From: a virus
Length of the DNA: 59,921 nt
Strand: one strand, 5' to 3'
Virus record (IMG/VR): IMGVR_UViG_3300037071_000511
Coordinates: 1 to 59,921 of that record
Both the position numbers and the translations under genes were made by a program. The notes under the pieces are model-generated. The model worked only from the letters and a program-made list of their open reading frames with translations, was not told where the DNA came from and did not search any database. Shown here piece after piece: positions 9,543 through 59,077 of this stretch; within the stretch, counting starts at the first letter, position 1, and each line of letters opens with the position of its first letter.

Positions 9543-10295
9543 TCAGTACCCTGCTCTCTTGTCTGCGAGGCCTATGCCTGCCCCGCCTTGCCTGCCCTTG
9601 GGTGACGGCAACCCAGCCACCCGTTCCCATGTGCGCCAGAGGTAGCGCATGCAATCCATCAGGTGATCGGCCTGCCCATCCACGATCTTTCCGCGCTCGT
9701 CGCGCTGGTACACCCGGTACTCAGCCTTGAAGCTCTGCAGCGTCGAGAAAATCTTCAACTGCCCGAGCGCCAGCGCCTGCCAGCACGCGATCAACCCGGC
9801 CTCCAGTTCGTTGTTGGCGTCGATCAGGATCAGGCCGAGCGATTGATATTCGGCCTTCAACTGCTTGCCATCCTTCTGGCTCGACCCTTTGGCGGCCGGA
9901 TCGATCGCGCCCCTGATCCACTCACCCCGGGTCTTGATGGCGGTGGCGTGGACGACCGGCAGTTGCTGGCCTTTGTAGTGCTCGCTGTAGAGGTAGATCG
10001 TGCCGTCGACCGGGTTCTGCGCGCCCCACAGCGCGGCCGTCCGGTTCCAGCCGACATCGAGCGCGTAGCCCTTCTTCCAGCCAAACGGGATGGCGAACGG
10101 CTTGACCTCGATGTCGCTGATGGGGATCGGGTAGATCACCCCCGAACCCATCGTCGGCTCGCCCTTCGAGCGCGCGTCCCGCAGGTATTCCGGCGTCGAG
10201 TCGAGCAGTTCCTGCTTGGTCTTCTCGTCCAGATGCGGGACGCTGTCCCACCCGGCCTGCACGACGTACCGGGATGGAGAAACCTCGCCCATCAT
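9543..10295 (-). CDS. terL: Terminase large subunit, nuclease half (split gene)
   Basis: 251 residues if started at the ATG at 10295, which overlaps the stop of the membrane protein gene (TGATG). It is the RNase H-like nuclease domain of a large terminase: 'YALDVGWNRTAALWG' with Asp near residue 79, 'GAIDPAAKG' near 133, and 'DHLMDCMRYL' near 210. The upstream 'VVQAGWDSVPHL...STPEYLRDARSKG' part is the normal link region of such terminases. No Walker motifs are present. The ATPase half is a separate gene at 21469-22302. The open frame extends to 10370, but that part overlaps the membrane gene and has no ribosome site. Confidence 0.8.
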   Translation of the reverse strand: MMGEVSPSRYVVQAGWDSVPHLDEKTKQELLDSTPEYLRDARSKGEPTMGSGVIYPIPISDIEVKPFAIPFGWKKGYALDVGWNRTAALWGAQNPVDGTIYLYSEHYKGQQLPVVHATAIKTRGEWIRGAIDPAAKGSSQKDGKQLKAEYQSLGLILIDANNELEAGLIACWQALALGQLKIFSTLQSFKAEYRVYQRDERGKIVDGQADHLMDCMRYLWRTWERVAGLPSPKGRQGGAGIGLADKRAGY

Positions 10296-10507
10296 CAGGT
10301 TATCCGCGGCAGGTGCAGGCCGCCTCCGCTTCCCACCAAATCCAGCAAGAGCAGGATCACGATGATACATAGTACAACTATGGCCGCCACCTTCAGTATC
10401 TTCTGCGGCGGCTCTGGGATGAAGCTGTCCACTACGTACACGAATAAGTAGTACAAGATTCCGATAATCAGCAGGTAGATTATGAGCGTTATGATTGCGC
10501 CTATCAT
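10295..10507 (-). CDS. Two-TM small membrane protein
   Basis: 70 residues with two strong hydrophobic helices (about 2-25 and 38-58) linked by VVDSFIPEPPQK, ending in a Gly-rich tail. The plan resembles the small Thivi_2564-type membrane proteins often seen in phages and proteobacteria; a holin role is possible. AAGGAG is 7 nt upstream. It is clearly more AT-rich than its neighbours. Its position between fibre genes and the terminase nuclease is odd. Three TAGTACA-type boxes fall at 10368, 10447 and 10505, the last over the start codon. Confidence 0.65.
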   Translation of the reverse strand: MIGAIITLIIYLLIIGILYYLFVYVVDSFIPEPPQKILKVAAIVVLCIIVILLLLDLVGSGGGLHLPRIT

Positions 10508-10523
10508 AGTACAGTCTCCTTCG

Positions 10524-21468: not shown

Positions 21469-22302
21469 TCACATGTGCCCCAGTGTCGCTCGATCGGTCG
21501 CAAGCTGGAATTGTAGTACGGTTTCGCTCATGCCTTCAAGTGGCGTAAAGGTCAGGAGTAGTACGCCTTGCGTCGTCATCAGGCGGATCAGGCACTCGCC
21601 GTACACGTCCATTGGGCATTCCTCATCGAGCCAGATGACGTGCTGGCTGGTGCCCTCGAACGAGCCGCGGCCCTGCTCGTAGCTCTTCATGCCGAGCGTG
21701 CTCCAGCCGCCGCTGACGTGGCGCACCTTGACCGTGTCGGTCAGGTCATCGACGCCGCGCTTCCATGTGACCCGGCCAATGAGGTTGCCGGGGACCATGC
21801 CGGTGCCCTGCAAGACCTTGCGTAGGCCGTCGTAAGCCACGGGGCCGAGCAGGGAGGCTTGGACGATGTCGCGGGTGGTTTCGTTGCGTCGTCCGCATGC
21901 CCAAGCCCTAACAGGGTGAGCAAAGCGCTTACCGCTCCACCACGCAGGATATAGACCTGTGAGGTGCGCCGTAAGCTCGAAGGAGCCGCATGTAGTCTTC
22001 CCGACGCGATTGGCTGCGAGAAAACATCGCTCCCTATACTGCGCCCCGGCTCCAAAGAACTCGATATGCTTAGGATAACGATCGCGGGCATAGATGAGTA
22101 TGGAACCGTCATTGCCCACGCGATCCGCGTCGGGGAATAGATCGAAGTATAGACGCTGCTTAAGCTTCTCGACCAGCGTCGACGTGAGCGCCGCCAGACG
22201 CGCCTGCGTCGGCAGCGACAGTCGCTGGACTTGATCCGCGTCCGGTAGGTCAATTAGCTCGCTCATGGCGACTGCTGATGATGCCATCGAGATATCCCGC
22301 AT
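21469..22302 (-). CDS. terL: Terminase large subunit, ATPase half (split gene)
   Basis: 277 residues; GGAAG 6 nt ahead of the ATG at 22302 favours this start over ATGs at 22287 and 22266. It is the packaging ATPase domain: Walker A-type 'AANRVGKTT' near residue 96, Walker B 'VIWLDEE' near 225, motif C 'TFTPLEG' near 250. The frame stops 13 residues after the conserved 'SETVLQFQ', where intact terminases continue through a linker into the nuclease. The nuclease is encoded at 9543-10295. The two halves add up to about 528 residues, normal for a whole protein. No intein residues or intron remnants are apparent at the junction. Confidence 0.85.
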   Translation of the reverse strand: MRDISMASSAVAMSELIDLPDADQVQRLSLPTQARLAALTSTLVEKLKQRLYFDLFPDADRVGNDGSILIYARDRYPKHIEFFGAGAQYRERCFLAANRVGKTTCGSFELTAHLTGLYPAWWSGKRFAHPVRAWACGRRNETTRDIVQASLLGPVAYDGLRKVLQGTGMVPGNLIGRVTWKRGVDDLTDTVKVRHVSGGWSTLGMKSYEQGRGSFEGTSQHVIWLDEECPMDVYGECLIRLMTTQGVLLLTFTPLEGMSETVLQFQLATDRATLGHM

Positions 22303-25868: not shown

Positions 25869-25944
25869 TTGATTCTTCCCCATGTCGAGCTTTTATAGTA
25901 CGACAGCCGAACGGGTGGAAGAATCAAGTGGAAGGAAAAGCCAG
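25869..25944. promoter_or_regulatory. Divergent control region with TATAGTACG box
   Basis: The 76-bp gap separates the late minus strand from the early plus strand. It carries one degenerate copy (TATA-G-TACG, 25894-25902) of the early-promoter palindrome. A plus-strand TTGATT (25869) with TATAGT (25894) has long spacing; on the minus strand TATAAA overlaps the same box. One operator could control both directions. Confidence 0.5.
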
Positions 25945-28548: not shown

Positions 28549-28727
28549 GCAACATGCTTGAGCATGCCCGAGATGAATATCGCCGCTTGCTGCGCCTGCC
28601 TCTGGGCGGCTGGGAACGGCATTACAATCAGGCGTATCTGGCCTTTCTCCGTGACTTCATTGCGGAGATGGAAGGTCGTGATCCGCAGGCCGTGCAGGAA
28701 GAGTACGAGGGGGCAGCGCAGCTATGA
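28545..28727 (+). CDS. Hypothetical 60-residue protein
   Basis: Helical, mixed charge (MSNMLEHARDEYRRLLRLPL; AFLRDFIAEMEGRDPQAVQE). Coupled to both neighbours by ATGA overlaps. Not recognised. Confidence 0.5.
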   Translation: MSNMLEHARDEYRRLLRLPLGGWERHYNQAYLAFLRDFIAEMEGRDPQAVQEEYEGAAQL

Positions 28728-29182
28728 CTCTGGCGGTTCCGTACAAGCGCACGATGGCTGGGGCCAAGTGGCGGGGGCGGGAGAGCGAGCCGGTGTCGAC
28801 GCCGAAGCGCGACCGGGTGATCAAACTGGCGCAGCGGTGGAACAGGGAGAACCACCTGCGCAAGATGAAGGCCGAGATCAGCGCGCTCGACAGGAAGCTC
28901 GACGTGGCGATCGAGCGCAGCCGTTTTCCGATCGTGCCATTCACCAGTCCGAACACCATCATTCAACAGGTTGGGTTCTGGCACGGCCTGACGGTGCATG
29001 AGATTCTCAGCGACAGCCGCCTGATCCCGATCGTGGAGGCACGCTTCGATGCGATCGTCGCGGTGCGCATCAATTGCCGGATTGGGGGGAAGCGGCCGGG
29101 CCTGATGGATTTGGCCCGGCTGTTCAATCGCGATCACACGTCGATCATTTCTGCGCTTCGGCAGCGCGGATTGCGCGGCTGA
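28724..29182 (+). CDS. DnaA C-terminal-domain-like DNA-binding protein
   Basis: 152 residues. The basic N-terminus and coiled coil (1-65) are followed by a region like domain IV of the replication initiator DnaA. That region has helices 'VEARFDAIVAVRINCRI' and 'MDLARLFNRDHTSIISALRQ', where the RDHTS-I-x-x-A pattern matches the DnaA signature that contacts DnaA boxes. There is no AAA+ domain. It may bind host DnaA boxes or a phage origin, or act as a regulator. Its 3' end overlaps the minus-strand RHH gene by 38 nt. Confidence 0.6.
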   Translation: MTLAVPYKRTMAGAKWRGRESEPVSTPKRDRVIKLAQRWNRENHLRKMKAEISALDRKLDVAIERSRFPIVPFTSPNTIIQQVGFWHGLTVHEILSDSRLIPIVEARFDAIVAVRINCRIGGKRPGLMDLARLFNRDHTSIISALRQRGLRG

Positions 29183-29348
29183 TGCGCTGGTTCATGGCTC
29201 GCTTGAGGGTATCGTTGACACCCTGCAGCCAGCCCTTGCCGCCTAGCTCCCTGTAGAACGTCACGATTTCCGGCTCTAGCCGCAGCGTCAGGAGCTTCTT
29301 CCTCGACGGAGGCCTGCCTACCTTCTTCTTCTCTGCCATTGCGTCCAT
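29145..29348 (-). CDS. Ribbon-helix-helix (CopG-like) transcription regulator
   Basis: 67 residues; AGGAG 7 nt upstream. Lys-rich start (MDAMAEKKKVGRPPSRKKL) is followed by a beta strand 'LLTLRLEPEIVTFYRELGGK' and two helices ending 'NQRISRAIRAAEAQK': the RHH fold of CopG/Arc-type dimeric repressors. It is the only minus-strand gene inside the early region, and copies of the CGTA-N-TACG palindrome flank its divergent promoter. Binding to those boxes throughout the early region is a reasonable inference. Confidence 0.7.
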   Translation of the reverse strand: MDAMAEKKKVGRPPSRKKLLTLRLEPEIVTFYRELGGKGWLQGVNDTLKRAMNQRISRAIRAAEAQK

Positions 29349-29368
29349 GCGTTTTCTCCTCGCAAAAT

Positions 29369-29414
29369 TGTACTACGTAACCCCCTTGCGGGTCATTTGG
29401 TTCCGTACTACATA
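29369..29414. promoter_or_regulatory. Divergent promoter with two operator boxes
   Basis: Plus-strand promoter: TTGCGG (29386-29391), 17-bp spacer, TACATA (29409-29414). Minus-strand promoter for the RHH gene: ATGACC, 18-bp spacer, TACAAT, the latter inside the left box. Boxes: TGTA-C-TACG at 29369-29377 and CGTA-C-TACA at 29404-29412, centres 35 bp apart. Each box overlaps one -10 element, as expected for autoregulated repression. Confidence 0.65.
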
Positions 29415-29440: not shown

Positions 29441-29836
29441 ATGACCACCAACTTTGACACCAACATCGCCCGCGCCAAGGCGAAGGGCTGGAAGGAAGGA
29501 GTCAGGCGCATGCGCATGGAAAAGCGCATGGCCAGCGGGCTGGTCAAGGCCTGCCTCGCCCGGGGCTACCGGATCACCGTGAACAACGGCGAGGACGTCC
29601 CGATCCGTAAGAGCAAGAGCTACCGGGCCGTCATGGACGCCCTGTGGCAGACCGACGAGGAACATCTCTACATCTACGACGACGCCGACACGCGGCAGGG
29701 GTGGTTCTTCTTGGTCTTCGGCAACGACGGCTGGGATTTGGTCGCTGACTACAGCGACAACGACGCCTGCAACGAGGTCTGGAAGACGGTGCTGAGCCCC
29801 TTGAGCGACAAGCTCTGCATGGAGGCAGTCGGATGA
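29441..29836 (+). CDS. Hypothetical early protein
   Basis: 131 residues, first gene after the divergent promoter, with GGAG upstream. A basic, Met/Arg-rich helix (KGWKEGVRRMRMEKRMASGL) precedes a mixed domain with 'EEHLYIYDDADTRQGWFFLV' and an acidic part. Looks like a small regulator or inhibitor; not recognised. Confidence 0.55.
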   Translation: MTTNFDTNIARAKAKGWKEGVRRMRMEKRMASGLVKACLARGYRITVNNGEDVPIRKSKSYRAVMDALWQTDEEHLYIYDDADTRQGWFFLVFGNDGWDLVADYSDNDACNEVWKTVLSPLSDKLCMEAVG

Positions 29837-30023: not shown

Positions 30024-30067
30024 TGTGGTACACCACTCTTGCGTTTCGTAGTACAGCAGCCTATGTA
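30024..30067 (+). promoter_or_regulatory. Early promoter with paired boxes
   Basis: -35 TTGCGT (30039-30044), 17-bp spacer, -10 TATGTA (30062-30067). Box 1 TGTG-G-TACA (30024-30032) lies upstream of the -35; box 2 CGTA-G-TACA (30047-30055) lies in the spacer. Centres are 23 bp apart. Confidence 0.7.
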
Positions 30068-30792: not shown

Positions 30793-30989
30793 CCTTCCAC
30801 GAATACAAGAATGGCATGACCGTGATGGAGGGTGGCCGCAGCATTGCGGTCGCCCGCGATCGCAGCCCCAACGGCTGGCTGCTGACCCACTACACCGGCT
30901 GCTGGGTGCCGCGCCGCAGGTTCACCAACCTGCTCCGGGTCAAGACCCGCGCCGAGGCCCGCACCATCCTGCAGCAATTAATTTTGTAG
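30789..30989 (+). CDS. Hypothetical early protein, GTG start
   Basis: 66 residues from a GTG overlapping the previous stop (GTGA). 'MTFHEYKNGMTVMEGGRSIA' (first residue read as Met) and 'WVPRRRFTNLLRVKTRAEAR': beta then basic helix. Last gene before the next operator promoter, whose box 1 begins inside its final codons. Confidence 0.5.
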   Translation: MTFHEYKNGMTVMEGGRSIAVARDRSPNGWLLTHYTGCWVPRRRFTNLLRVKTRAEARTILQQLIL

Positions 30990-31028
30990 CACGGGCCCCT
31001 TGACTTTCGTAGTACAGACGCCTAAGTC
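30985..31028 (+). promoter_or_regulatory. Early promoter with paired boxes
   Basis: -35 TTGACT (31000-31005), 17-bp spacer, -10 TAAGTC (31023-31028). Box 1 TGTA-G-CACG (30985-30993), box 2 CGTA-G-TACA (31008-31016), centres 23 bp apart, the same geometry as at 30024 and 33267. Confidence 0.7.
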
Positions 31029-33083: not shown

Positions 33084-33271
33084 GCGCCCGCGACGTCAAG
33101 GAATGGTTCCAGATGATCCAGACGATGGATGACAAGAAGCTTGCCCAGCACCTGCTGGGCGATCTCCGCGCCTACCGCAATCACAGCCAATGGGAAGGCC
33201 AAGACATCGAACAGGTGCTCGCCATCTTCACCGCGATCCGGCTCGACCAGATGACCAAGGAAAATTCGTAG
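33080..33271 (+). CDS. Hypothetical early protein, GTG start
   Basis: 63 residues from a GTG overlapping the previous stop. Helical (KEWFQMIQTMDDKKLAQHLL; EQVLAIFTAIRLDQMTKE). Its stop codon lies within operator box 1 of the next promoter (33267-33275). Confidence 0.5.
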   Translation: MSARDVKEWFQMIQTMDDKKLAQHLLGDLRAYRNHSQWEGQDIEQVLAIFTAIRLDQMTKENS

Positions 33272-33310
33272 TACGCCCCTCTTGCATTACGTAGTACGAT
33301 GCTCCATATT
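33267..33310 (+). promoter_or_regulatory. Early promoter with two perfect boxes
   Basis: -35 TTGCAT (33282-33287), 17-bp spacer, -10 CATATT (33305-33310). Both boxes are the exact 9-bp palindrome CGTAGTACG, at 33267-33275 and 33290-33298, centres 23 bp apart. This is the best-conserved example in the window. Confidence 0.75.
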
Positions 33311-34267: not shown

Positions 34268-34540
34268 ATGATCATCAAGCCCGTCACCATCACCGTCAGC
34301 GAACACCACCTGAAGGCCGCGATGAATGCGCTGTCCTACAGGCTCACCAAGATGCAGCCCAACACCCCGGGCTACCGGAACGCCGACTACGCATTGGATG
34401 CGTTCTACGAGGCCTTCGTTGCCGCCCTGAAAGCCAAGGAAAAGGCGGCGACCGCCGAGTACGACAAGTACGCGAAGGAGCGCGCGATCCAAGCCTACCT
34501 CGACACCGAGCAACTCAAGAAGCAGGAGAAAGCGACATGA
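34268..34540 (+). CDS. Hypothetical early protein
   Basis: 90 residues, directly following the previous stop. Starts MIIKPVTITVSEHHLKAAMN and has a Lys/Ala-rich helical C-terminal half (ALKAKEKAATAEYDKYAKER). Unknown. Confidence 0.5.
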   Translation: MIIKPVTITVSEHHLKAAMNALSYRLTKMQPNTPGYRNADYALDAFYEAFVAALKAKEKAATAEYDKYAKERAIQAYLDTEQLKKQEKAT

Positions 34541-34848
34541 CCGACAAGATCAACACCATCGTCAAGATCATCGAACGCGCGGAGCCGATCGCCCGCAGGC
34601 ACCACATCCACCTCGATCGGCTGACCTCGATCATGGATGTCGAGAACGCCAACGACCAGTACCCGCTCGACCTCGATGCGTGGCTGGCCGCGGACGACTC
34701 GAACTTCGTCCACGACTTCTTCGGCATCCGGGCCAACATCAACCGCGAGACTGGCGTGCTCGACAACTGCTTCGTGCCGCGCTTCTACAGGCAGGTGGAG
34801 CCCGTCGATGACGGCGGCATGGCTGAAGAGCGGGAGCGCCACCCATGA
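34537..34848 (+). CDS. DUF6874-like protein
   Basis: 103 residues, ATGA overlap. 'IARRHHIHLDRLTSIMDVEN' then 'DSNFVHDFFGIRANINRETG' and 'LDNCFVPRF' fit the plan of the phage DUF6874 family (F-HD..GI...I.R.TG.L..CF.PRF). No known biochemical role. Confidence 0.55.
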   Translation: MTDKINTIVKIIERAEPIARRHHIHLDRLTSIMDVENANDQYPLDLDAWLAADDSNFVHDFFGIRANINRETGVLDNCFVPRFYRQVEPVDDGGMAEERERHP

Positions 34849-35181: not shown

Positions 35182-35523
35182 ATGATGATGTTGAGATCAG
35201 CCAAGGGCGATCGCACGCAGCACTACGAGAACCTGAACGCCTACACCCGCAACGGGTTTCCCGCCCGCTGGATGTTGGGCAAGTACTGGCAGATCGATGA
35301 GGCGATTTTCTGGGAGTTCCTAGAGATGCTGCCGCCAGAAACCTGTGAGAACGGGTTCCGCATGATCGAGCGTCTGACCGGCGACATCGCCGCCACCTAC
35401 CTCAAGATCGATGACGACTACTGGTGCGCCATGACCGATCTCACCACGACCCGGCCCGACAAGATGGTCCGGGCGATCCGCAAGCGCGGGATCGGGACGA
35501 GGCGCTGGCTCGCGAGGACATAA
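35182..35523 (+). CDS. DUF1419-like protein
   Basis: 113 residues. 'GDRTQHYENLNAYTRNGFPA', 'DEAIFWEFLEMLPPETCENG' and 'FRMIERLTGDIAATYLKIDD' resemble the DUF1419 family, found in alphaproteobacteria and their phages. Directly followed (TAATG overlap) by the Mom-like gene, with which it may work. Function unknown. Confidence 0.55.
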   Translation: MMMLRSAKGDRTQHYENLNAYTRNGFPARWMLGKYWQIDEAIFWEFLEMLPPETCENGFRMIERLTGDIAATYLKIDDDYWCAMTDLTTTRPDKMVRAIRKRGIGTRRWLART

Positions 35524-36338
35524 TGATTGCGCATCAGCGCCGCATTCGCGAGGCGATGGCCGAGACACACCCGCGTGAGTCTGCCCTCTCTCTGGCAGGC
35601 TATTCGGTCGAGACGATCAGCCGCGCCGACGCCACGCCGATCATCATGCATTACGAGTGGCTGCACACACTCGGGCAATCGACCCTGTTTGTCGGGCTCC
35701 TCTCCCCGTCTAGGGAGATCGAGGGCGTGGCTTGTTTCGGCTGGGGACCGACCGGTCCCATCCGGCAACTGATCGGATCGCCAGCCTTCTGTCTGGAGCG
35801 CGGAGCCTGCGTGCATTACGCACCGCCGAATGCCGCATCGTTCCTGATCACCGCCGCCTGCAAGCTGATCTACCGGGTGAGGGGCGTGGCGCGATTCTTC
35901 GCCTATGCTGATCCGATGGCAGGCGAGTACGGCGCGGTCTATCAGGCGGCGAACTGGCTCTATCTCGGGCAGGGTCTTAACGGTGGCAAAGGCCGCGAGC
36001 AGCGGCTGTTCGTGCTGCCACCCGGCAAGGACGCCAACGAACCATCGCACTGGCAGACGACGCGCATCCTGCGACGGCAGAAGCCCAAGCTATACCTGAC
36101 GACATGCGAGGCTGCGGGCTGGCGGGTTGCCAAGCGCGAGGCCAAGCACGTCTATGCGCTCAACGTCGGGCGCGATCGCAATGGCTGGAAGAAGGAGCTT
36201 CGCGCCAAGCAGGGCGATCGTCCCTATCCAGCACCGCGACCGGAGCTAAAGCGCAAGTCCAGCACGGCCGTGAAGTTTCGAATTGAGCCGCCGATCAAGC
36301 CGCAGTCGGAACTTTTCGAAGCAAGTCTTTCGAAATAG
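35523..36338 (+). CDS. Mom-like DNA modification protein
   Basis: 271 residues from ATG at 35523, overlapping the previous stop. The core has a GNAT-type plan like phage Mu Mom, which converts adenine to N6-carbamoylmethyl-adenine and so blocks restriction. Seen here: 'PIIMHYEWLHTLGQST' (about 38-53), 'GVACFGWGPTG', 'CLERGACVHYAPPNAASFLI' and 'FFAYADPMAGEYGAVYQAAN' (about 125-144). The C-terminal 70 residues are basic. The family call is by motif memory; a different phage acyltransferase cannot be excluded. Confidence 0.6.
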   Translation: MIAHQRRIREAMAETHPRESALSLAGYSVETISRADATPIIMHYEWLHTLGQSTLFVGLLSPSREIEGVACFGWGPTGPIRQLIGSPAFCLERGACVHYAPPNAASFLITAACKLIYRVRGVARFFAYADPMAGEYGAVYQAANWLYLGQGLNGGKGREQRLFVLPPGKDANEPSHWQTTRILRRQKPKLYLTTCEAAGWRVAKREAKHVYALNVGRDRNGWKKELRAKQGDRPYPAPRPELKRKSSTAVKFRIEPPIKPQSELFEASLSK

Positions 36339-36371: not shown

Positions 36372-36440
36372 ATGATGACGCCGCCCATCCGGCCAAGGAT
36401 TGAGGGCGGCGCTTTTAACGGTCAGCAAGAGGAGAATCTC

Positions 36441-37883
36441 ATGACCGCCACCGATAATATCGTGCGCTTCGCACCCCTTACAACTCACAATGTTACGTTG
36501 CCCGATCACCTGAGTGTCAAGGTGACCAAGGGCAATCTGATCGATGACGCCAGACCGTATGGCTACGATGGCGAAATCTTTTTCGGCGTCTGCTTCATTC
36601 AGGGCGGCCGTATCATGTTCTCGACCGCCATGCCGATCAGCACCATGCTGAAGGTGTCAAAGGTCGATCGCGCCAAGGCAGGCTCGACCGTCAGCGAGGT
36701 GATGGAGAAGGCCAACCGGCCCAAGATCGCTGGCCATGCGCAGGCACTTCGCAAGTACCTGCTCAACACCGCATGCGTAGGCGAGAAGTTCATCCTGCCC
36801 GGGATGAGCTTCAATTTCGGTGATGAGAGCACGACCCCGGAAGACGCGCCGGATGCAGTGCTCGTCATCTACGCCGACGAGAACGAACAGGCGAGCAATG
36901 GCTGGCCGGCCCGCTTCCACCTGCCCCGCGCCATCCTGCTCGATACGACGGACGGCGGTCACCGTGGCGGCGAAACCGCTGCCATCATCAACGACGGCGG
37001 CAATAGCTTTACGACGGATCAGGAACGCGAGAACCTGCGCCGCAATGCCGTGCCCGTGACCATCATCTTCGAGCGCAAGCGCATCGATGCGCATCAGGAT
37101 TTTGCTGATGCTGCGCGGGCAAAGCCGATCACCGGCTCGCTGATCTCCACCTTCGACGTCCGCGATCTTCGCAATTCGCGCACCATCAGGCTGGTCGAGA
37201 GCGTGCCGTTCCTGAAGCATTACGTCGATGCGACGGCGGCCAACGTCAACCTGTCGGCAGGCAGTCTGAAAATATGGTCGATGTCGGCAGCGCGTGGCTT
37301 CGTCAGCCACATTCAGGATCGCTATCCTCCAGCCAAGGATGGCGACGTCGAGAAGACTCTGGTCGAGAAACTGGAGGGTGCCGAGGATTTCTTCGGCTCC
37401 GTCATCCAGCACATGCCGCAGCTTCACACGCTTGACCTTGCTCGCCTTGAAGCAGATGCGCGCAAGCAATCCAGTGCTCCAGTGGCAACGCCCCCGGTGC
37501 GCACGGAGACGCCCAAGACGTTCCGCAACAAGCGGGGCGGCGACATCGCCCTGCGCGGCGTCGGTCTGAGCCTTCTGGCGCGGGCCTTCATCCATGCCAA
37601 GGAATACGGCATGAGCTTCGATGACGTGGCGCAGAGACTGGGACAGGTCGACTGGCACCTGCTCGACATCGAGAAGGATCAGCTTCCTGATCCGACGACA
37701 GACGAGGGTCGCCAGACCTTCGCCGCCGAGGTCAAGAAGCATGTGCTGCCCATCTGGGGATCGATGGTGATCATTGGCGAGAGCCGTTACAAGATCGGCT
37801 CCTCCAACGAGGAGGCCAATGGTGCGTGGGAACGCATCAAGGCCAAGCACTTCGATGCGCCGCAGACGCTCGCTGCCGAGTAG
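36441..37883 (+). CDS. DGQHR/DndB-like protein
   Basis: 480 residues from ATG at 36441 (GAGGAGA upstream). The family motif appears as 'TDGGHRGGETAAI' near residue 169 (DGGHR in place of DGQHR). It is followed by 'VPVTIIFERKRIDAHQDFAD' and 'ISTFDVRDLRNS', the usual next elements of DndB/DpdB-type proteins. Such proteins accompany phosphorothioate or deazaguanine DNA modification, but no other dnd or dpd gene is visible here. The C-terminal 150 residues are helical. It has its own promoter and terminator, so it is an independent unit. Confidence 0.65.
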   Translation: MTATDNIVRFAPLTTHNVTLPDHLSVKVTKGNLIDDARPYGYDGEIFFGVCFIQGGRIMFSTAMPISTMLKVSKVDRAKAGSTVSEVMEKANRPKIAGHAQALRKYLLNTACVGEKFILPGMSFNFGDESTTPEDAPDAVLVIYADENEQASNGWPARFHLPRAILLDTTDGGHRGGETAAIINDGGNSFTTDQERENLRRNAVPVTIIFERKRIDAHQDFADAARAKPITGSLISTFDVRDLRNSRTIRLVESVPFLKHYVDATAANVNLSAGSLKIWSMSAARGFVSHIQDRYPPAKDGDVEKTLVEKLEGAEDFFGSVIQHMPQLHTLDLARLEADARKQSSAPVATPPVRTETPKTFRNKRGGDIALRGVGLSLLARAFIHAKEYGMSFDDVAQRLGQVDWHLLDIEKDQLPDPTTDEGRQTFAAEVKKHVLPIWGSMVIIGESRYKIGSSNEEANGAWERIKAKHFDAPQTLAAE

Positions 37884-37929: not shown

Positions 37930-37971
37930 GTGACACACCCCCTTGCAATTTCGTAGTACGGTCGCTATGTT
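37929..37971 (+). promoter_or_regulatory. Early promoter with paired boxes
   Basis: -35 TTGCAA (37943-37948), 17-bp spacer, -10 TATGTT (37966-37971). Box 1 is TGTG-A-CACA (37929-37937), a perfect palindrome with different outer bases; box 2 is the exact CGTAGTACG (37952-37960). Centres 23 bp apart. Confidence 0.72.
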
Positions 37972-38018
37972 CGTGGTGGAACTAGAAACCAGCGCAGAGC
38001 CCCCGGAGGTGGGCGGTT

Positions 38019-38141
38019 ATGCTGACCAGAAGAATGATGAAGCGAAACAGAGCCAGAGCCAGAGCCAAGCAGAGGATGCGCGCAGTGATGCAGGCGATCT
38101 TCGACACGCTCTTCGGCACAATGAGGGAGATGACCGCGTGA
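38019..38141 (+). CDS. 40-residue Arg-rich peptide
   Basis: MLTRRMMKRNRARARAKQRM then a helix 'AVMQAIFDTLFGTMREM'. GGAGG is 9 nt upstream and the stop overlaps the GTG start of the next gene (GTGA). It is strongly basic; it could bind RNA or DNA, or only serve as a coupled leader peptide. Confidence 0.45.
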   Translation: MLTRRMMKRNRARARAKQRMRAVMQAIFDTLFGTMREMTA

Positions 38142-38461: not shown

Positions 38462-38805
38462 CCAACCCGGCAAGAGAAGCCCTGACCCGCGCGGTCAATC
38501 GAGCGATCGAGGAAGGCGCACCCGTCTACGTCAACAAGGCGGACCCTACCCTCCTGACCACCATGCCCACACTGGGCCTCACTGACAGCGGTGCCGAGAT
38601 CAAGATGCGCCGCACCCTGCCCAATCGCAGCGGCAACCTCGCGGCCGAGATCGTGCTCTGTCACCTGCCTTGGAACACGGTCACCCCGTTCGTGACGTGG
38701 CAGGCCAACACCGATAGCCAGTACGGCGGGACGTACTGGGGCCATTACTTCAAGGCCGACGAGGCCGACGAGGCCGTAACCGATTTCATGAAGAGAGGAC
38801 GCTGA
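38458..38805 (+). CDS. Hypothetical early protein
   Basis: 115 residues in ATGA overlap. MTNPAREALTRAVNRAIEEG, then beta with 'NLAAEIVLCHLPWNTVTPFV'. Not recognised. Confidence 0.5.
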   Translation: MTNPAREALTRAVNRAIEEGAPVYVNKADPTLLTTMPTLGLTDSGAEIKMRRTLPNRSGNLAAEIVLCHLPWNTVTPFVTWQANTDSQYGGTYWGHYFKADEADEAVTDFMKRGR

Positions 38806-38806
38806 C

Positions 38807-39334
38807 ATGCTCGCCAACAAAATCCAATTCGGCAAGGAGTACGCCGTCAACTACAAGGGCGCGCTCCACTCCCTGCGCGTGACCGAGATGCACAACATCC
38901 GCACCGGGAACCATAACGCCACCAACTACGTCGTTGGCAGCATCACCACCGCCGAGCCGAACGAGATCGGCATGTATCCCACGGTCAAGTTCCAAGCCTC
39001 CGACATCCTCGATGAGGTCGAGAAGTACCGCGAACTGGTCGAGGAGAAGGCCCGCCAGAAGCGCGAAACCGACGCCCGGATCGAGGCAGCTACCGCCAAG
39101 AAGGAACTGGCCGCCACCCTGCTCGCCAAGGCGATCGGCGTGCCGGTCATCCTCACGACCAAGGCAGGGAACTATGCGCAGATGGCGCAGGAGGCCCACG
39201 TCAGCGCGAGCAGCTACAGCGGCATCGTTGTTGACGCGAAGGCCTTCGACGCCCTGATCGTCTACCTGCAGCACGCAGGCGTTACCGTGGGCGAAACGGT
39301 TGACGCCGCTGGGCTCTTCAAGGAAGAGGCATGA
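38807..39334 (+). CDS. Hypothetical early protein
   Basis: 175 residues. N-terminal beta part (YAVNYKGALHSLRVTEMHNI), central charged coiled coil (VEEKARQKRETDARIEAATA), then a second alpha/beta part. May be an oligomeric regulator. No family recognised. Confidence 0.5.
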   Translation: MLANKIQFGKEYAVNYKGALHSLRVTEMHNIRTGNHNATNYVVGSITTAEPNEIGMYPTVKFQASDILDEVEKYRELVEEKARQKRETDARIEAATAKKELAATLLAKAIGVPVILTTKAGNYAQMAQEAHVSASSYSGIVVDAKAFDALIVYLQHAGVTVGETVDAAGLFKEEA

Positions 39335-39514
39335 ATGCGAATCAACCACGTCGAAGACGCCGACATCGCCACCCTGCGCAACATCCTCGTTCGCCTGTAT
39401 GATGCCACCCGGCTGTCGGATGACGAGCGCCGCGATCTGGCGACCATCATGCACCTGATCCTCGATCGCATCGAGACGGCCGACGTCGAGGTGAAGGAGC
39501 CCGAGCATGGCTGA
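39335..39514 (+). CDS. Hypothetical 59-residue protein
   Basis: MRINHVEDADIATLRNILVR and 'SDDERRDLATIMHLILDRIE': helical, acidic. It begins directly after the previous stop and overlaps the next start by 8 nt. Unknown. Confidence 0.5.
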   Translation: MRINHVEDADIATLRNILVRLYDATRLSDDERRDLATIMHLILDRIETADVEVKEPEHG

Positions 39515-40256
39515 CGAATTTCCTGCCCAGCAACCAGCGTTTCTCAGCGAGTGGAACTTCGTCACGGCGACCGGGGCACCGCCGCTGACTACGGAGGTGC
39601 GGCTCAATCAGACCTCGCAGAAGGCCGCGAACCGACTGCGGATTCACAAGATCACCGCTAACGGTATCGATGCATCCATCCAACTGGACGTGGTCAAGAT
39701 CGGTGACGTGATCAAACTTCATGACCTCAACGATACGACCAAGTGGCATGACTTCGCGGTCACTGCCGCCCCGATCAAACAGGTGGACTACTGGGATTAC
39801 CCGGTCAATTGGCAGACTGGCGGGGGAAATTCCCTGACCGCCGGGAAGGTCGCCATCAACCTGCCCACTATCGGCATCAGCGTCAGTGTCACTGCCCCCG
39901 CTGCCCTGCACGTCGCCACCAATCACGTCGACATCACCGGGCAGTTGATCATCCGCGACTTTGCCTATCCGTTCCAAGGCATTCACTACACCAACCCCGG
40001 CCTGACGCGCCGCCAGTGGTACGCCGGGATGGCGATGCAGGGATGGATCGCCAATGCGGCATCACCTGCCGCCAACCTGATCGGCAAGATCGCTGACTAT
40101 TGCTTCAAGGTCGCCGACTCGATGATCGAGCATGAGGACGCAGAGGCCGCGGGCGAGTCACAGCCGGTCGCTGGGCAACCCAAGGTGACGACCATCGAGC
40201 AACTGAAGAACGAGCAGGCCGCCGAGGTTCAGGCGCTGGCCCGCAAGGCGTCCTGA
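39507..40256 (+). CDS. Fusion of a tail-fibre-type domain and a small phage domain
   Basis: 249 residues. Residues about 1-90 (WNFVTATGAPPLTTEVRLN, 'TTKWHDFAVTAAPIKQVDYW') match the beta domain present twice in the 832-residue tail fibre. Residues about 165-215 (RRQWYAGMAMQGWIANAASP, 'IADYCFKVADSMIEH') resemble a small helical domain often found alone in phages as a putative DNA- or virion-associated protein. The early location of a fibre-type domain is unusual. The last 30 residues form a charged helix. Confidence 0.55.
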   Translation: MADEFPAQQPAFLSEWNFVTATGAPPLTTEVRLNQTSQKAANRLRIHKITANGIDASIQLDVVKIGDVIKLHDLNDTTKWHDFAVTAAPIKQVDYWDYPVNWQTGGGNSLTAGKVAINLPTIGISVSVTAPAALHVATNHVDITGQLIIRDFAYPFQGIHYTNPGLTRRQWYAGMAMQGWIANAASPAANLIGKIADYCFKVADSMIEHEDAEAAGESQPVAGQPKVTTIEQLKNEQAAEVQALARKAS

Positions 40257-40265
40257 ATTTATTTT

Positions 40266-40311
40266 CGTAGCACGGTTGACAACGGAGAATCCAAGCTCTA
40301 CCTGTACTACG
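40266..40311 (+). promoter_or_regulatory. Promoter with boxes outside the core
   Basis: -35 TTGACA (40276-40281), 17-bp spacer, -10 TACCTG (40299-40304). Box 1 CGTA-G-CACG (40266-40274) precedes the -35; box 2 TGTA-C-TACG (40303-40311) lies at the end of the -10. Centres are 37 bp apart, not 23, like the 35 bp at 29369. Confidence 0.65.
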
Positions 40312-47884: not shown

Positions 47885-48548
47885 CCCGCTCGACCTTGAC
47901 CTCGACTGGCGTGCCGTCTGGCACCGTGACTGTCACCCGGTAGACGATCTCCATCAGACCCGCGGCCACTTCCGAGATCATCAGAGCTTCGAGGAACTTG
48001 TCGTGATACCCGGCGACCCTCGCGCCGTTGGTCTTGACGTCGTTGTTGATGATGATGCGCGCCCCGGTCGGATCGTTCTTGGTCGCCGAGAAGAAGTCAT
48101 CGAGCGCCTTGCCAGTGAACCAGCCGCCTTCCATCCCGTGGTACATCACGTTGGCAGATATGGTTGGATCGAGCGCCCGATCAGGGTGCCACTCCAAGTC
48201 ATCCGTACCGCCAGTCAGATCCAATTCTCTAGTAGCGTTTCTGTAGTTCTCGCGCCACGTAAGTTGAACGTCGCCCCTTCCATAATATGCGTGCCCCGTT
48301 TCTTTATCAACAGCCCCGTATTTCTTGCCTTTACCTTTGCCATACTCTTCGATCGGCCACATAGTCTTTGCCGTTTCATGGTAACTCGTTGCAAAGGGGT
48401 AGGCGAGGTGGCGTAAGTCTGAGGATAGCGTGCTCGCTTCATAGGCCGCTAGCTTGAAGTTCATTCCGTCTACCTGTTGCTGAGACATCCCCTTCGGAAA
48501 GAGGCTGGCGCGAATCGAATTGAAGAATTTGGTCCGGTCGAATTTCAT
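47877..48548 (-). CDS. Endolysin, GH19-like
   Basis: 223 residues. No signal peptide. 'FATSYHETAKTMWPIEEYGK' (Glu in HET is the catalytic acid of the lysozyme/GH19 fold) followed by 'HAYYGRGDVQLTWRENYRNA' match GH19-type phage lysins that cut peptidoglycan glycan chains. The C-terminus adds a short beta part (VYRVTVTVPDGTPVEVKVER). About 48225-48500 is more AT-rich than the rest, suggesting domain acquisition. Stop and start overlap neighbours. Confidence 0.75.
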   Translation of the reverse strand: MKFDRTKFFNSIRASLFPKGMSQQQVDGMNFKLAAYEASTLSSDLRHLAYPFATSYHETAKTMWPIEEYGKGKGKKYGAVDKETGHAYYGRGDVQLTWRENYRNATRELDLTGGTDDLEWHPDRALDPTISANVMYHGMEGGWFTGKALDDFFSATKNDPTGARIIINNDVKTNGARVAGYHDKFLEALMISEVAAGLMEIVYRVTVTVPDGTPVEVKVERDD

Positions 48549-51500
48549 TGCACCGGCTCCTTCTTCGGCTTCCGGGTGCGCGTATCGAACTCGTCCACCC
48601 GCTGCCCAAGGTTCTCGAACTTCGACATGATGTCGGCCGCCCGGGAATCATGTGCCGACTGGCTGATCAAGCCCCGGTCGAGGTCACTGGCGTTGTCACG
48701 GAACTCTTTCGTCAGCGCTCTCTGCACCTTCTGGAAATCGAAGAAGTGCCACATGATTCCGTTCTCGACGTCGACCGGCTTGAACTTGATGCCGATCGAA
48801 CTAAGCGCCGCCTGCGTCAGCGAATAGGGGCGGTCGGTGTACTTTTCCTTCGCGCCGTAAAGCGCGTTGGCGATCTTCGTCCAGTACCACGACCGTGGCG
48901 TCCAGAACGATGCCGGTGCCCACGACTTCCACGCCCAGTCGGCCACGCCCGAAAACTTGTCACCAGCATCCTGCGTCAGTTGGTTGGTGATGTCCTCGCC
49001 CGAGAAGGCCTGCCGGTTGAGCATGAACTCGAAGGCCATCTGCAGCGGCCCGCCGAACTGCAGCGGGGCCGGGATCGGCAGCGCGCTCGACCCCTGCGAG
49101 GTGTCGAAGATGTCCCCGGCCGGTATCCAGCGGCGCACGTCGAGGAATACCGGCAGGCCATGCGCATCGCGCCACGGCATGCGCAACATGCGCGGTGTGC
49201 CCAGCCAAGTGTATCCTTGCTCTTCATCCCGCAGCGCCGCGCGCTCGCGTTCCTCGCCGTCGTCGCCGTCGTCCCACAGATAGGCCAGCGCGTTGACCGC
49301 GTAGGCGATCGCCATATACTTCGCCACCTTCCACGGCCGGTGCATGAGGCCTTCTGCTAGCTTCGGCACCGCCCGGTAGGTGTAGCTGATGAACGGGAAC
49401 AGCGAGTTGCGCATCATCACGATCCACGGCGCGCGGATGTCGTAGTTGAGGAACTGATCCCGGGCATTCGCTGCAGCCACCTGTGGGCTTTCGCCCTGTG
49501 AGCGCCGCCGCATGTAGGTGGCCATGCGGAATAATTGATCCTCGGCCTGATAGGCACGCAGCATGCCGTCGTCGGCGGTCTTGGCCCACGTCCACAGCTT
49601 GTCGGCGACGACGCCCAGAACGCCTGCCCGAGCGAGGAACGGATTGCTCGCGCCCGTGGTCTGCTTGCTGATCTCATCGAGGATCGGCTTGAACACCTGA
49701 TCGCGAATCTCTTGGCTGATCTGGTCGCCACCGAAAGCGCCGTTGTCGAGCGCCTCCTGATAGTTGGCATCGCCCTTGTAGAAAGCCTTGATCCCGGCGG
49801 CGAGGTCTTGCATCCGCACGTCGGCCAAATCCATGAGCACCAAATTCGAGTTGATGTTGTTCATGTGGACGACCGGGTTGCGGCCGGTCTTGTTCTTCTT
49901 GAACTGCGACATCAACTTGCGCCACGTCCCCGGCCGGTTGGCGATGTCGACTTCGTTGAGGTCGCGCCATATCTCGGCGCGCACGAACTTCCCGGCCAGC
50001 GCGCCCCAGCGCTTCTTGCCGCCGGTCCCCTGAATGTTGGTGTCGGGCACCTTGACCCAGCCGATCGACGGGTCTTCCCAGAAGCGGCCGTATTCGCTCG
50101 CGTCCTTCCATGTGCCATCCGGCGGCGGCGTCGACTTCGTCCACTCCTGCTTGACCGCCACGTCACGGAAGAAACGACCAGTGCTGAGATCGTTAGCCAT
50201 CAGCATGAAGGTCTTGGCGATTGTGTAGCGGGCGTCGACAATTTCGCCCATCTTGTCGCGCTCTGTCTTGGTGTAGTCGCGCCACAACGTGTTGGTCTTG
50301 CCCTGCTTGCGCACCTCCCACGTTCCCCGATCGACCCAGTTCGCGCCCTGATACTTAGCCGGAATAGTTTCGTTAGCTGGCAAATAGACGCGCCGCAGAG
50401 TCTTCTCTACAGGCGCTGCGCCCGGCGTCAGACTGGCCATCGTGCTGACCTCATCGATCACCCGGAACTTCTCGCCCAGAACGGGCGCACCGCGACCGCC
50501 GCTCTTGAACGATTCCACATCCTGCATCAGGCGATCGCCCTCGACATCCATGAAGATGCCCCGGCCTTTCAGTTCATCGCCAATGATCTTCTTGCGGCGG
50601 TTGCTCATCTTGGCCGACACCCAGCCCGCCAGCGTCGACTGGTCGACCTCGTTCTTGGCATAGACCCGGTGGAGATAAGCGCCACGATTACGCTCAAAAC
50701 TCTCGGCCGAGATCAGCCCGAGCGAAACGGCCTCGGCCCCCATGTCATCGATCGCTTTGCGAATCGGCACCGACAGCTTGATCATGTCAGCATCGGTGAC
50801 GTTCTCGCCGGTCAGCACCGCCTGCAGCACCTTGGCTTCCGCCGTGCCGACGCCAGCATTCGACAACACCTTCAGGACACCCTGCGTCTCGCGCAGGATC
50901 GCGGCCTTGCCAAGATCGCTCTTGCGGTAGGTGTCGATGTATTCCGGGTCGAGCCCGTAGCCGTCGATCAGCCCGCGCTTGGCGTTCTCCGCGAAGTGGC
51001 CCATGAACCCGAATGCCCCGGTCGTCGGCCACGGCTTGGAGCCAAGGATGTAAGCGCCCACCGATCCGCCTGCGGCAAAGCCGATCGCGCCACCGACAGG
51101 ACCGCCGATCGCACTGCCGACGCCAGCACCAATGACGCCACCGATCCCCAAGCCTTGTATCCCGGCCGGTCCCATCTTGTCGGTCAGCCGCTTGCCCGGC
51201 CGCCAGCGGCTCTGGTTGTCAAGCCCGCCGAGCATATCGAACGGCACGCGAATCGCGCGGTCGACCGGCTGGCCGCGATTGAGGAATCCTTGGCTGACCT
51301 GTTGCGCCTGCTGCGCACTGTGCGGCGCGGTGAGCAGGCTGAAGCGCGCATCATTCGGCCCGCTGGGCGGCTTGCTGAATTTGGCGACGTTCTCTGTCGT
51401 CGGCGGGTGCCACCACATCAGGCCCTGCTTGCCCAGCTTGAAGCCCCACTTGGTGTAGATTTTGGCCAGCTTCTTCGCGCCGATCGCACCGCGGTCCCAC

Positions 51501-54500
51501 GTCGTCAGCGCCAGCGGCACGTTGTGCTTGGTGGCAAGCTCCTTCAGGTACTCCATGCCCTGCGTGCCCATGCCGGATTTCTGCGGATAGGCCGACAGCC
51601 ACTTCACGTACAGGGCGTCACCGTAGTTCTCCAACTGCATCATGATGGCCGCGGTCTGCTCTTTGTTGGCAAACCCGATCTCGGCATTGTTCAGCGGATT
51701 GGGGAACAGGGTGGCGAAGGCCTCGTTGAGCGCGGCATCGATGCGCGTCTTCACCGCCGCCTTCTCACCGCCGCCGAGATTGAGCGGCTTCGAGAACAGC
51801 GCCAGTTGATTCTTCTCGTCGCCGAACAGCGGCAGTTCGCCGACATCCTTCTGGCCCACGGTCGGCCGCATTGGCGCTTCCGCCCGGCGCTGCGCCAGCG
51901 TTTTCTCGCTGACCTTCTCGGCCCCCGGAATGACCAACTGTTCCGCCGGGCCATCGAACAGGTCGACTATCTCGGTCGGGACCGGCGGCGCTGGCTGCGC
52001 TGCCCGCTTCTCCTCCATATACAGATGGGTCGCGAGGCTCGATGCGTGATTGTACTGGGTCAGCGGATAGGCACTGCGCATCAGTTCGCCAGTGCGGCGA
52101 TCGCGGACGATGTACTGGTTCTTGCCGATCGGGCCATATTCAAAATCCCCAGCGCGCCCCTTCTGCACGAACCCCTCGGGCGCTGGCTTGGAGAACTTCG
52201 CGCCTTCGGTCACCAGCTTGCCGGTAGCATCTACGAACACCTGATTCTCTGGCCTGTTGATCAGGATGAACTCGCCTTCGCCGCCGCGATCGGTGACCGC
52301 CAGAATGTGCTCGCTGTCGAGCGGCACCTCGGCGCTGAGAATCTGGAACTCCTGCTGCACGCCTTCCTTGTGCGCTGGCTGGTGGCCCTGCGAGGCGTAG
52401 TCGTAGCTCACGCTCCACGACAGGATGGTCCGCTTGCTGCCCTGTGCGACCTGTCTCTGCTTGCGGTAGAGCTTGACGGTCGGCCCGTAATTGTCCCGCA
52501 GGATTTCCAAAATGGGTTCGACATCCGCCCTGATCTTGTCCAGCAATGCCGGGTCATCGCCTCGCGCCGCCCTTTCAAGCTGGCCCTGCCCCTGTCGAAC
52601 GGCGAGGCTCATGGCCCCCGTTCCAACCCGCTCTCCCCGCGGCGTCCATTGCGTGTACTCGACTATCGCCTCCTGCACGGCGGTGTTGAGTTTTTGGTCG
52701 GCCCGATCCAGCTTTTCCTTGACGTTGCGCGGGAAGTTTTCGCGTTTCGGCTCGACCTTGCTGAACCACGGCTGGCCCTCCATCCACGCAGGTTCACTAG
52801 GCGAGGCTTGCCCGGGCGATGTCACCTCGATGCCAGCGCCCACCTGCGTGCGACCGCCGATCTTGCCGCTCTGCACCTGCCGGAACACGTCCTCGGCCGT
52901 GCGAATGTCGTGACCTGTCAGCGCCTGATACAGCGCCTTCAGGAAGGTTTTGAATTTCTTGAAGGTGCGGCTGATCATGCCGTCCATGCGAGCGCCGTTC
53001 AGCCACTCGACATAGGCGTGCGTGATGCCCTCCTCGACCCACTGCGCCTGCGGATACTGCCGCTTGATCTCGTCGGTGATCCATTCCTTCCGCGACTTGC
53101 GCCGCAGGATCGCCTTCTCGCTGTCGGTCGCGGCGAGTTCCATAATGGCGTGCATCACCTCATGGTGCAGCGCGTCTTCCGGGCTAGCGACCGGCTTCGA
53201 TCCGATCTGCAACGCGACATTGATTGCGTCGTGGAGATAGACGCCGTTGACGTTGAACTCGTCTTCGCCCTGAGTGACGAGAACTTCCTCCCAGACACTC
53301 AGGTCGACGCCCTTCAGGCCATAGCCGTCGAGGATTTTGCGGAAGCTCTTGAGGAACCCTGCCGCCTTGGCGACGAACGCTGGCGTGGTGGTGTAGGTGA
53401 TGTTTTCGGCGGGAGTAACGACAGTTTCCTGCCGCCCGGCCGGTGGCAGCAGGAGGCTTGGCGCTGCCCGTGCAATGGCTACTTCTTGCTGCCGAGCCGC
53501 CCTGCCTGCGCCGGGCCGTATTTTTTCTGGACGTTGGCCACGGCCTCTTCGCTCAACATGTCTCCCCGCTCCAATTTTTCCTCCGGCGACAAACCGGGCT
53601 CCGAGAGCCAAGAGCGGTGCTTTTCCCGTAGCCTCTGAGACTCTTGCGTTAAGATGGTCGTCCGATCTGATTTTGACATAGCTGGCGAATTTACCTTTCG
53701 ATTTCGCGTAGTCGAAAATATACGGCGGGGCCGCCACCACCTTCATGAAAAAGTCCGGGTTGATCAGCCGTCCCTTTTCTACGAATCTCTTCCACATACG
53801 GCGCGCGGCCGTGTCCTGCGTGACATCCAGCAAGGCGAGATGGACGGTATAGCCGTTCTTCTCCAGCATGCCGCGCCACCACTCGATGCTGCCGTGCTGG
53901 TCGCCCACCGTGGGGATGATGAGATTGGCACCCTCGCTGACAAGCTGGTCAGTGACCATATCGCCTAGCTGTTTGCTTTCGTTATGAACTGCGTTCGCGC
54001 CCATGCCGGGCGTCATCTTCCCATTGGCGTCCGGGGCGGTGTATCCGGGGATGACCTTCTTGGCCTCATCGACATCGGTGATTGCCGCCTTGAACTCATA
54101 GGCAAGTGCATTGGCGATAGTCGATTTGCCTGCCGCAGGTGGGCCCTGAACGATGATCGCGAGGCGCTTGTTCTCGACAGTGTACGGCTTGACGTGGTCG
54201 AGCCGCACCCCCACCCCCGTCTCTCTCACCTTTGCGTTGTGGTAGTCGATGCCTTCATTGATCTCCTTGGTCGCCAGCCCGTGGGCAACGTCGTACAGAT
54301 AATCGAGCGCTTCCTGCAGCTTGACCTTTGCGCCTTTGACATTCCACCGCCGGGCCGCCAACCACTCGGGCGTCCAGTATCCTTCCTCATCAGACGTGAT
54401 GGGGACGTCGTTCATTGCCTTCACGGCGGCAAGGGCTTCAGGCGTCTTCAGCTTCTTGAGCGCCCGTTTCCTGAGTAGCTTCTCAACCAGACCCAGCCTG

Positions 54501-58081: not shown

Positions 58082-58084
58082 CGA

Positions 58085-59077
58085 TCACAGCCCTGCGTCC
58101 GCTGGATCGACACCTGCCGCCTCAAGCGCGTTTCGCACCGCGGTCCTGCTCCTGCCAAGCCCACCCTGTTCCTTCGGCAGGATGGCCGTCTTGGCGTCCG
58201 AGATCAGCTTCTGCTTCTGAGCGGACGTGAGCGGGGTCTTCTCCTGTGTTGCGGACGACGGTGCCGCGGGCGATGCCGGTGCGGCCGGTGCCGTTGGAGC
58301 ATCCGCTGGTCCGTAGATGCTGTCAGTGATCGTCGCCGCTTTCTTCTGGGCGAAATCGAAATCATCCTCGCCCAGATTTTTCATGGTGCTCATGCCATCA
58401 ACGATCGACTTGAAGATGCCAGCCTGCGCCAGATCGCGGTTGGCGTTCTTGGCGTTGTAGACCAGCGCCATCGCCTTATCCTTGTCGACGCCGAGCGTGA
58501 GCAGATACTTGACGTTCTTCGCCTCGTTGGTGTCGTTATCCGAAATCGCCGGGACCATCGGCTTGCCCGTCGCCGGGTCGACCGGCATCGAGACAGGCTT
58601 GCCAGCCCGCATCATCACCGACGATCCATCCGCCTGCGTCTGGAAGGTCACGTTGAGGTCTTTCTGTGCCTCGATCTGCGCCTGCGCGATATCCTTTTGG
58701 GTATCGGTCTGCAGCTTGGTCTGCTTCTCGCCCGACTCGATCTGCGCATAAACCTCATCCCTGCGCGCATCGATCTGCGCTTGGGTCATCTTGGCACCTG
58801 TGTCGGTGGCATGCCGTGTCTCACCGACTTGTGCCATTCCAAGTTTTTCCTGAACGCCGAGTGTCGCCTGCGTCAGCTTCTCTTGGCTGGCACGGTTGGC
58901 AGCGCCCTCTTCTCGCAGGAACGCTTGGCGATTGGCCTCAAGGCGATCGGCGCGATCGTCGGCGAGTTGCTGCTTCTTTAGCTCGCGCCTGTGCTCGACA
59001 TCTGCAAGCATGCCGGTGCCAGCGCCGCCCACTGCCCCGGCGAATATCCCCGCAAGCGCCCCACCAAACCCAGCCAT
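58085..59077 (-). CDS. Putative internal virion / ejection protein
   Basis: 330 residues. Gly-rich hydrophobic N-terminus (FGGALAGIFAGAVGGAGTGM, a glycine-zipper), then a long Gln/Ala/Lys-rich coiled coil (about 30-150), a 'MPVDPATGKPMVPAISDNDT' loop, and a helical C-terminus. Small proteins with glycine zippers next to a giant virion protein often form part of the ejection apparatus through the envelope. It overlaps the upstream gene (ATG/TGA). Role inferred. Confidence 0.5.
   Translation of the reverse strand: MAGFGGALAGIFAGAVGGAGTGMLADVEHRRELKKQQLADDRADRLEANRQAFLREEGAANRASQEKLTQATLGVQEKLGMAQVGETRHATDTGAKMTQAQIDARRDEVYAQIESGEKQTKLQTDTQKDIAQAQIEAQKDLNVTFQTQADGSSVMMRAGKPVSMPVDPATGKPMVPAISDNDTNEAKNVKYLLTLGVDKDKAMALVYNAKNANRDLAQAGIFKSIVDGMSTMKNLGEDDFDFAQKKAATITDSIYGPADAPTAPAAPASPAAPSSATQEKTPLTSAQKQKLISDAKTAILPKEQGGLGRSRTAVRNALEAAGVDPADAGL

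Follow-up and report, generated by a model that had tools for sequence, protein, structure and literature searches.

Does a small RHH protein govern the short palindromes that recur at the promoters of its own phage? We analysed the whole of a viral record (the window, 59,921 bases), the genes of which include those for a major capsid protein, a portal, terminase halves, a helicase, RecT and an endolysin. The initial annotation had named the RHH protein as candidate master regulator of the operator set, and this proposal is supported by the co-occurrence of box and gene and by the half-sites of chromosomal brnTA promoters. On our reading it is probably a repressor that controls its own gene together with early promoters of the host-sigma70 type, and that descended from BrnA and lost the toxin-binding part; its binding, repression and timing are what we infer from the results below.

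The RHH gene and its BrnA-like protein

The gene had been placed at 29145-29414 as a minus-strand gene for a small RHH protein. It is real, and the product of the ORF 29145-29348 exceeds the cut-off of the Pfam profile BrnA_antitoxin (PF14384; 31.9 against 26.1 bits); the frame ends at 29348, and the remainder up to 29414 is promoter (Table 1). It had also been called the only minus-strand gene of the early region, and it is indeed the sole well-supported one from about 26.2 to 46 kb: the minus frames 34495-34842, 37982-38119 and 38786-39607, though conserved, were set aside as shadow frames of plus genes. A plus-strand gene with a weak match to the DnaA C-terminal HTH (28724-29182) converges on and overlaps the RHH gene.

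The 67-aa protein also matched phrog_4692, labeled "antitoxin", and has orthologues in G001, G006, G007 and G029; it is conserved in one close relative (G001/L009) at 79-88% identity, and the RHH proteins of four close relatives scored 32.8-44.4 bits with PF14384. The match to the BrnA profile spans positions 24-68 only, so that the first 23 positions are missing and just the RHH half is covered. Alignment gave the same picture: in two chromosomal BrnA proteins the RHH domain is preceded by a long segment, where the phage proteins have about 10 residues. Judged by profile match and alignment, the phage protein thus lacks the N-terminal segment that precedes the RHH domain in a BrnTA module. 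Nor does a brnT gene adjoin the brnA-like gene, since BrnT (PF04365) had no match in the window and none in any of the seven records searched. The RHH protein is apparently what remains of a BrnA antitoxin of which the DNA-binding domain was kept, while the toxin and the part that binds it were lost.

Structural and database comparisons were also made. The AlphaFold model is a monomer of mediocre confidence (pLDDT 72) without a strand, with helices at 26-36 and 40-65 after an extended stretch; Foldseek matched this poor model to no RHH structure in the PDB, an absence that carries no meaning because the model is too poor. Sequence searches of the PDB with single-sequence and profile queries matched nothing relevant, none of the five RHH proteins (0/5) matched a relevant NCBIfam family, and neither the RHH protein nor the DNA of 28-36.5 kb had a match among INPHARED phages.

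Table 1. Coordinates of the RHH gene and of the promoter boxes in the window
Feature	Position	Strand	Arrangement	Relatives or basis
RHH gene	29145..29348	-	67 aa, ATG start; BrnA-like, N-terminal part of BrnA profile absent	Translation, PF14384, phrog_4692
Box GTACTAC (minus strand GTAGTAC)	29370..29376		Overlaps minus-strand -10-like TACAAT (29372-29367) of RHH gene	Conserved in G001, G006
-35-like TTGCGG (G001: TTGACG)	29386..29391	+	Between the two boxes	Consensus match only
Box GTACTAC	29405..29411		Overlaps plus-strand -10-like TACATA (29409-29414) of gene at 29441	Conserved in G001, G006
Paired boxes 30025 (GTGGTAC, 1 mismatch) and 30048	30025..30054	+	23 bp apart, flank -35-like TTGCGT	G001: 40814/40837
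Paired boxes 30986 (GTAGCAC, 1 mismatch) and 31009	30986..31015	+	23 bp apart, flank TTGACT	G001: 39580/39603
Paired exact boxes 33268 and 33291	33268..33297	+	23 bp apart, flank TTGCAT	G001: 37248/37270 (22 bp)
Box	37953..37959	+	Within spacer of TTGCAA-17-TATGTT	G001: 32740
Boxes 40267 (GTAGCAC, 1 mismatch) and 40304	40267..40310	+	37 bp apart, TTGACA between	G001: 29942/29979
Boxes 10369 (ATAGTAC), 10448 (exact) and 10506 (ATAGTAC)	10369..10512	-	At and upstream of start of TerL C-terminal-half gene	Matrix trained on other phages
Near-box ATAGTAC	25895..25901	-	Upstream of minus VRR-NUC gene	G001: 44519 (conserved); found by matrix from other phages

Palindromic boxes at the RHH promoter and across the window

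As had been annotated, the divergent promoter of the RHH gene carries two palindromes that overlap the -10-like hexamers in both directions (Table 1). Their spacing had been given as 23 bp, a distance that occurs instead at 30025/30048, 30986/31009 and 33268/33291; the two boxes of the RHH promoter lie 35 bp apart in the window and in G006 and 34 bp apart in G001, and the argument that two turns would place two dimers on one DNA face is therefore rejected there. The RHH gene's own promoter is boxed in all five RHH records, the second box being degenerate in G007 and G029. At the level of sequence, the five records thus have operator-like boxes both at the gene's own promoter and at other phage promoters, the pattern of an autoregulated multi-site phage repressor. 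A scan for sigma70-like promoters and for terminators did not rise above chance (promoters: 2 found, 2.1 expected), and the promoter hexamers are accordingly consensus readings only.

Across the window GTANTAC occurs 18 times against 2.0 expected, a higher over-representation than for any other of the 64 odd palindromes; the form GTACTAC accounts for 16 occurrences, with a shuffle mean of 0.77. Intergenic DNA makes up 10.4% of the window and holds 8 of the 18 exact boxes (binomial P 2e-4, on a gene set that was partly hand-curated, with 16 frames dropped and 24 added). The boxes at 31009 and 33268, which look regulatory, fell into the coding class only through a TTG-start frame and an overlap of 4 bases. 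Coding copies do exist; the one at 30624, for instance, has counterparts in both G001 and G006, and its reading frame encodes tyrosines. We make no regulatory claim for these copies.

Pairs of boxes 22-23 bp apart, with at most one mismatch in all, were found three times in the window and three times in G001, and not once in 60 Markov simulations of either genome. Most pairs flank a -35-like TTGAC or TTGCA. As far as consensus hexamers allow, the downstream box lies in the -35/-10 spacer in pairs 20-23 bp apart and over the -10 in pairs 33-35 bp apart. Since the box shifts in this way relative to the -10 and -35, it is unlikely to be part of the core promoter read by sigma and is placed like an operator.

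A weight matrix was built from 20 sites of G006, G007 and G029 only, in both orientations. Seven of its top eight matches in the window are promoter boxes, and the remaining one (21510) falls within a terminase gene; only the first five matches, the terminase site included, exceeded the highest of ten simulated genomes. The three boxes of the TerL region are present also in G001 (57346, 57404 and 57483).

Box and gene in related phages and at chromosomal brnTA promoters

G001 (64,139 bases), a circularly permuted relative with conserved synteny, matches most window genes. A capsid-protein scan yielded 49 loci, 27 of which were used for tests of PF14384 and of CGTAGTAC, the other 22 being fragments of at most 13.4 kb or the record of G001. 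PF14384 was present in 4 of the 27 records, namely G006 and G007, which have the window's type of protein, G003, whose related protein (MITLRLEP) is about 50% identical to the window's, and G026, whose protein is different and has a long N-terminus. A profile scan added one more RHH record, G029, and the LLTLRLE-type RHH is known from one lineage only (5 records). L010, a relative found via a 306-aa protein, was too distant and was not used.

In each of the four near-complete RHH records GTANTAC ranked first of the 64 odd palindromes, with z values of 10.5 (window), 7.5 (G001), 6.3 (G006) and 10.0 (G007). The proposed regulator had been open to the objection that the boxes might be kept in relatives lacking the RHH gene; in seven such relatives (G013, G016, G019, G020, G022, G025 and G027; 52-61 kb) no enrichment was detected (z -0.9 to 1.5), and the proposal stood. 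This composition-controlled test covered seven of the eight RHH-less records of at least 50 kb, while G021 (101.7 kb) was counted by pattern only and gave 0 for CGTAGTAC and 5 for GTANTAC. Counts of CGTAGTAC were 6 in G006 and 11 in G007, compared with 0-2 in those eight records. Because raw counts are less clean without composition control, expectations were computed for G019, G025 and G027, which hold 8, 14 and 8 copies of GTANTAC against 6.9, 15.3 and 4.7 expected (the calculation for G025 stops at base 60,000 of its 61,175, a stretch that holds 13 copies). G029, a 20-kb fragment found by its RHH gene alone, is weak by count (z 2.3, rank 3) and has boxes at the RHH promoter and in a neighbouring pair. 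No exact box was seen in the 19-20 kb read of G003 and G026, the records with divergent BrnA-like proteins, which in the case of G003 counts against control by the RHH protein. The palindrome and the RHH gene thus appear and vanish together in related phages, and the RHH protein is very probably the phage's master switch for early genes. Separately, six loose GTANTAC-like pairs, 18-40 bp apart, were noticed in G019 (L185-L187), where the box itself is not enriched.

If BrnA-like proteins read the boxes, a related site is expected at chromosomal brnTA promoters. We searched 136 bases at the brnT start of loci in which a brnT-like frame precedes brnA, which left 31 of 44 loci in a first set and 49 of 60 in a held-out set; the rest had no brnT frame upstream or a short upstream sequence. 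GTA-N2-TAC occurred in 13 of the 31 promoters (0.47 expected from shuffled sequence, 0.15 when other windows of these loci serve as background) and in 13 of the 49 held-out ones (0.56 expected), and in both sets it was the most enriched 3+3 palindrome with spacers of 0-4. L084 and L085 had been excluded from the 31 since their frame start was mis-set; by eye, GTA-N2-TAC is contained in L084 and L088, both outside the 31. In many other brnTA loci near forms such as GTTACTAC and GTGCATAC stand right at TACAAT. A promoter-side primer for Brucella brnTA contains the GTA-N2-TAC motif as well (PMC11150624). These sequences make GTA-N2-TAC a candidate operator for BrnTA operons in general.

The phage form, GTA-N1-TAC, was found at 0 of the 31 and 1 of the 49 promoters. 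The phage boxes therefore do not conform to the operator GTA-N2-TAC derived here for BrnA; the half-sites are common to the phage and the BrnA family, and the spacer, one base shorter in the phage, is not. In the literature searched, no BrnA-like protein was described as a phage regulator and GTA-N2-TAC was not described as a BrnA operator, which the primary BrnA paper may contain. A code linking beta-strand to operator (TLR with GTAG) was tried and dropped: it held in 5/5 cases of the first set (P 0.007, post hoc) and in 3/4 held-out cases against 5/9 others, and was not specific. Among chromosomal loci L081-L184, variants such as GTTACTAC were seen tied to particular BrnA beta-strands (VSTTVRF).

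Proposed role and alternatives

We attribute control of the boxes to the RHH protein because box and gene co-occur, because all five records (5/5) have boxes at the gene's own promoter, and because the half-sites resemble those of brnTA promoters. Each GTA-N-TAC box would take up the paired beta-strands (LLTLRLE) of an RHH dimer, and dimers on two boxes would flank the -35 of a host-sigma70-type promoter, the second box lying in the -35/-10 spacer or over the -10. Boxes so occupied would block RNA polymerase at the promoter of the RHH gene itself and at a group of early promoters, and one late promoter and one promoter of the replication block may belong to the same regulon. Both the number of dimers per box pair and repression over activation are what we infer.

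A tyrosine integrase (PF00589), which a lysogeny (immunity) repressor would be expected to accompany, was found neither in the window nor in G001, G006 or G007. The likelihood of a classical prophage repressor is thereby lowered and that of a switch of early transcription raised; the protein would shut off early transcription once it is sufficient, rather than silence an integrated prophage. PF00589 is present in the RHH-less G013 and G022, with a weak match in G016, and a change of life style together with a switch of regulator is possible.

The boxes might instead be read by another protein of the early module, such as the DnaA-like product of 28724-29182, with the RHH gene merely a target. 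Shared descent could bring box and RHH gene together in this case too, and the adjoining protein does have its DnaA-like HTH match, albeit below cut-off. We consider this unlikely, since BrnA-family promoters independently bear palindromes of GTA/TAC half-sites, which ties the family to such sites, since boxes at a divergent promoter of its own in all five records are the usual mark of an autoregulator, and since the 20 early proteins scanned contain no further DNA-binding family. If the RHH protein is the reader, it could still act as an activator, or as a dose-dependent repressor-activator, of middle promoters. Several -35-like hexamers are imperfect, and AvtR, an RHH protein of an archaeal virus, works as both activator and repressor (PMC5569661); in most pairs, however, one box covers the -10 or lies in the spacer between it and the -35, and a protein bound there would be expected to block the polymerase, so that activation is an improbable account.

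The family names BrnA_antitoxin and phrog_4692 antitoxin would suit an orphan antitoxin that shields the phage from a host BrnT, the boxes being incidental. The absence of BrnA profile positions 1-23 and of the long chromosomal N-terminal segment argues against that, as do boxes that lie far above chance and track the RHH gene, and we regard it as very unlikely. Plasmid RHH proteins bind iterated sites, and on that precedent the boxes could form a centromere-like set of partition or replication sites bound by an RHH partition protein. Each promoter has just one or two of them, they extend across about 11 kb and further without forming a single array, and they are located at promoter-like hexamers, so that this possibility is barely credible.

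The preferred reading, an autoregulated early repressor, has one of its closest known counterparts in the BrnT/BrnA type II modules (PF14384; Brucella abortus), with which the phage shares the Pfam family above cut-off, the RHH domain and, at the -10 of promoters in that family, palindromes made of GTA/TAC half-sites. The phage differs in having neither BrnT nor the N-terminal segment, many operators rather than one promoter, and a spacer of one base rather than two. The archaeal virus proteins SvtR, AvtR and F55 are likewise small viral RHH proteins that act on their own and other viral promoters, but the promoters are archaeal, the recognition sequences are unrelated, and the passages of PMC5569661 consulted give no link to an antitoxin family. 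MrpR of the Bacillus prophage SPbeta resembles it as a single phage repressor with a short element (SPBRE) repeated at many phage promoters, whereas MrpR is of recombinase fold and keeps the prophage (PMC10516654); the present protein is RHH, and its phage showed no tyrosine integrase. In the mycobacteriophage stoperator systems (PMC9283540), one repressor also has many genome-wide sites, although these are asymmetric and also stop elongation, unlike the present palindromes on promoters.

Boxes and RHH gene could have descended jointly as one early module. More tentatively, and with somewhat less than even confidence, we suggest that an antitoxin's DNA-binding domain, without toxin or toxin-binding part, was adopted by a phage lineage as a global early switch, and that its operator was shortened by one base, avoiding cross-talk with host BrnTA operons. 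This would suggest a route from a toxin-antitoxin module to a viral transcription switch. The work names a regulator-operator pair that is cheap to test for a phage group nearly without functional annotation, and a family-wide BrnA operator rule, GTA-N2-TAC, would predict binding sites at once.

Other features of the genome were noted in passing. The large terminase seems to be divided between two minus-strand genes that lie 11 kb from each other (21469-22302 and 9543-10370), one for an ATPase half and the other for a nuclease half; G001 shows this division too (48023-48799 and 57491-58318). Genes of the Mom and DndB families, both linked to DNA modification, adjoin each other on the plus strand (35424-36338 and 36372-37883), and a single minus-strand gene of 3178 aa (48545-58081) combines a ddrB-like ParB domain with a zeta-toxin-like kinase domain.
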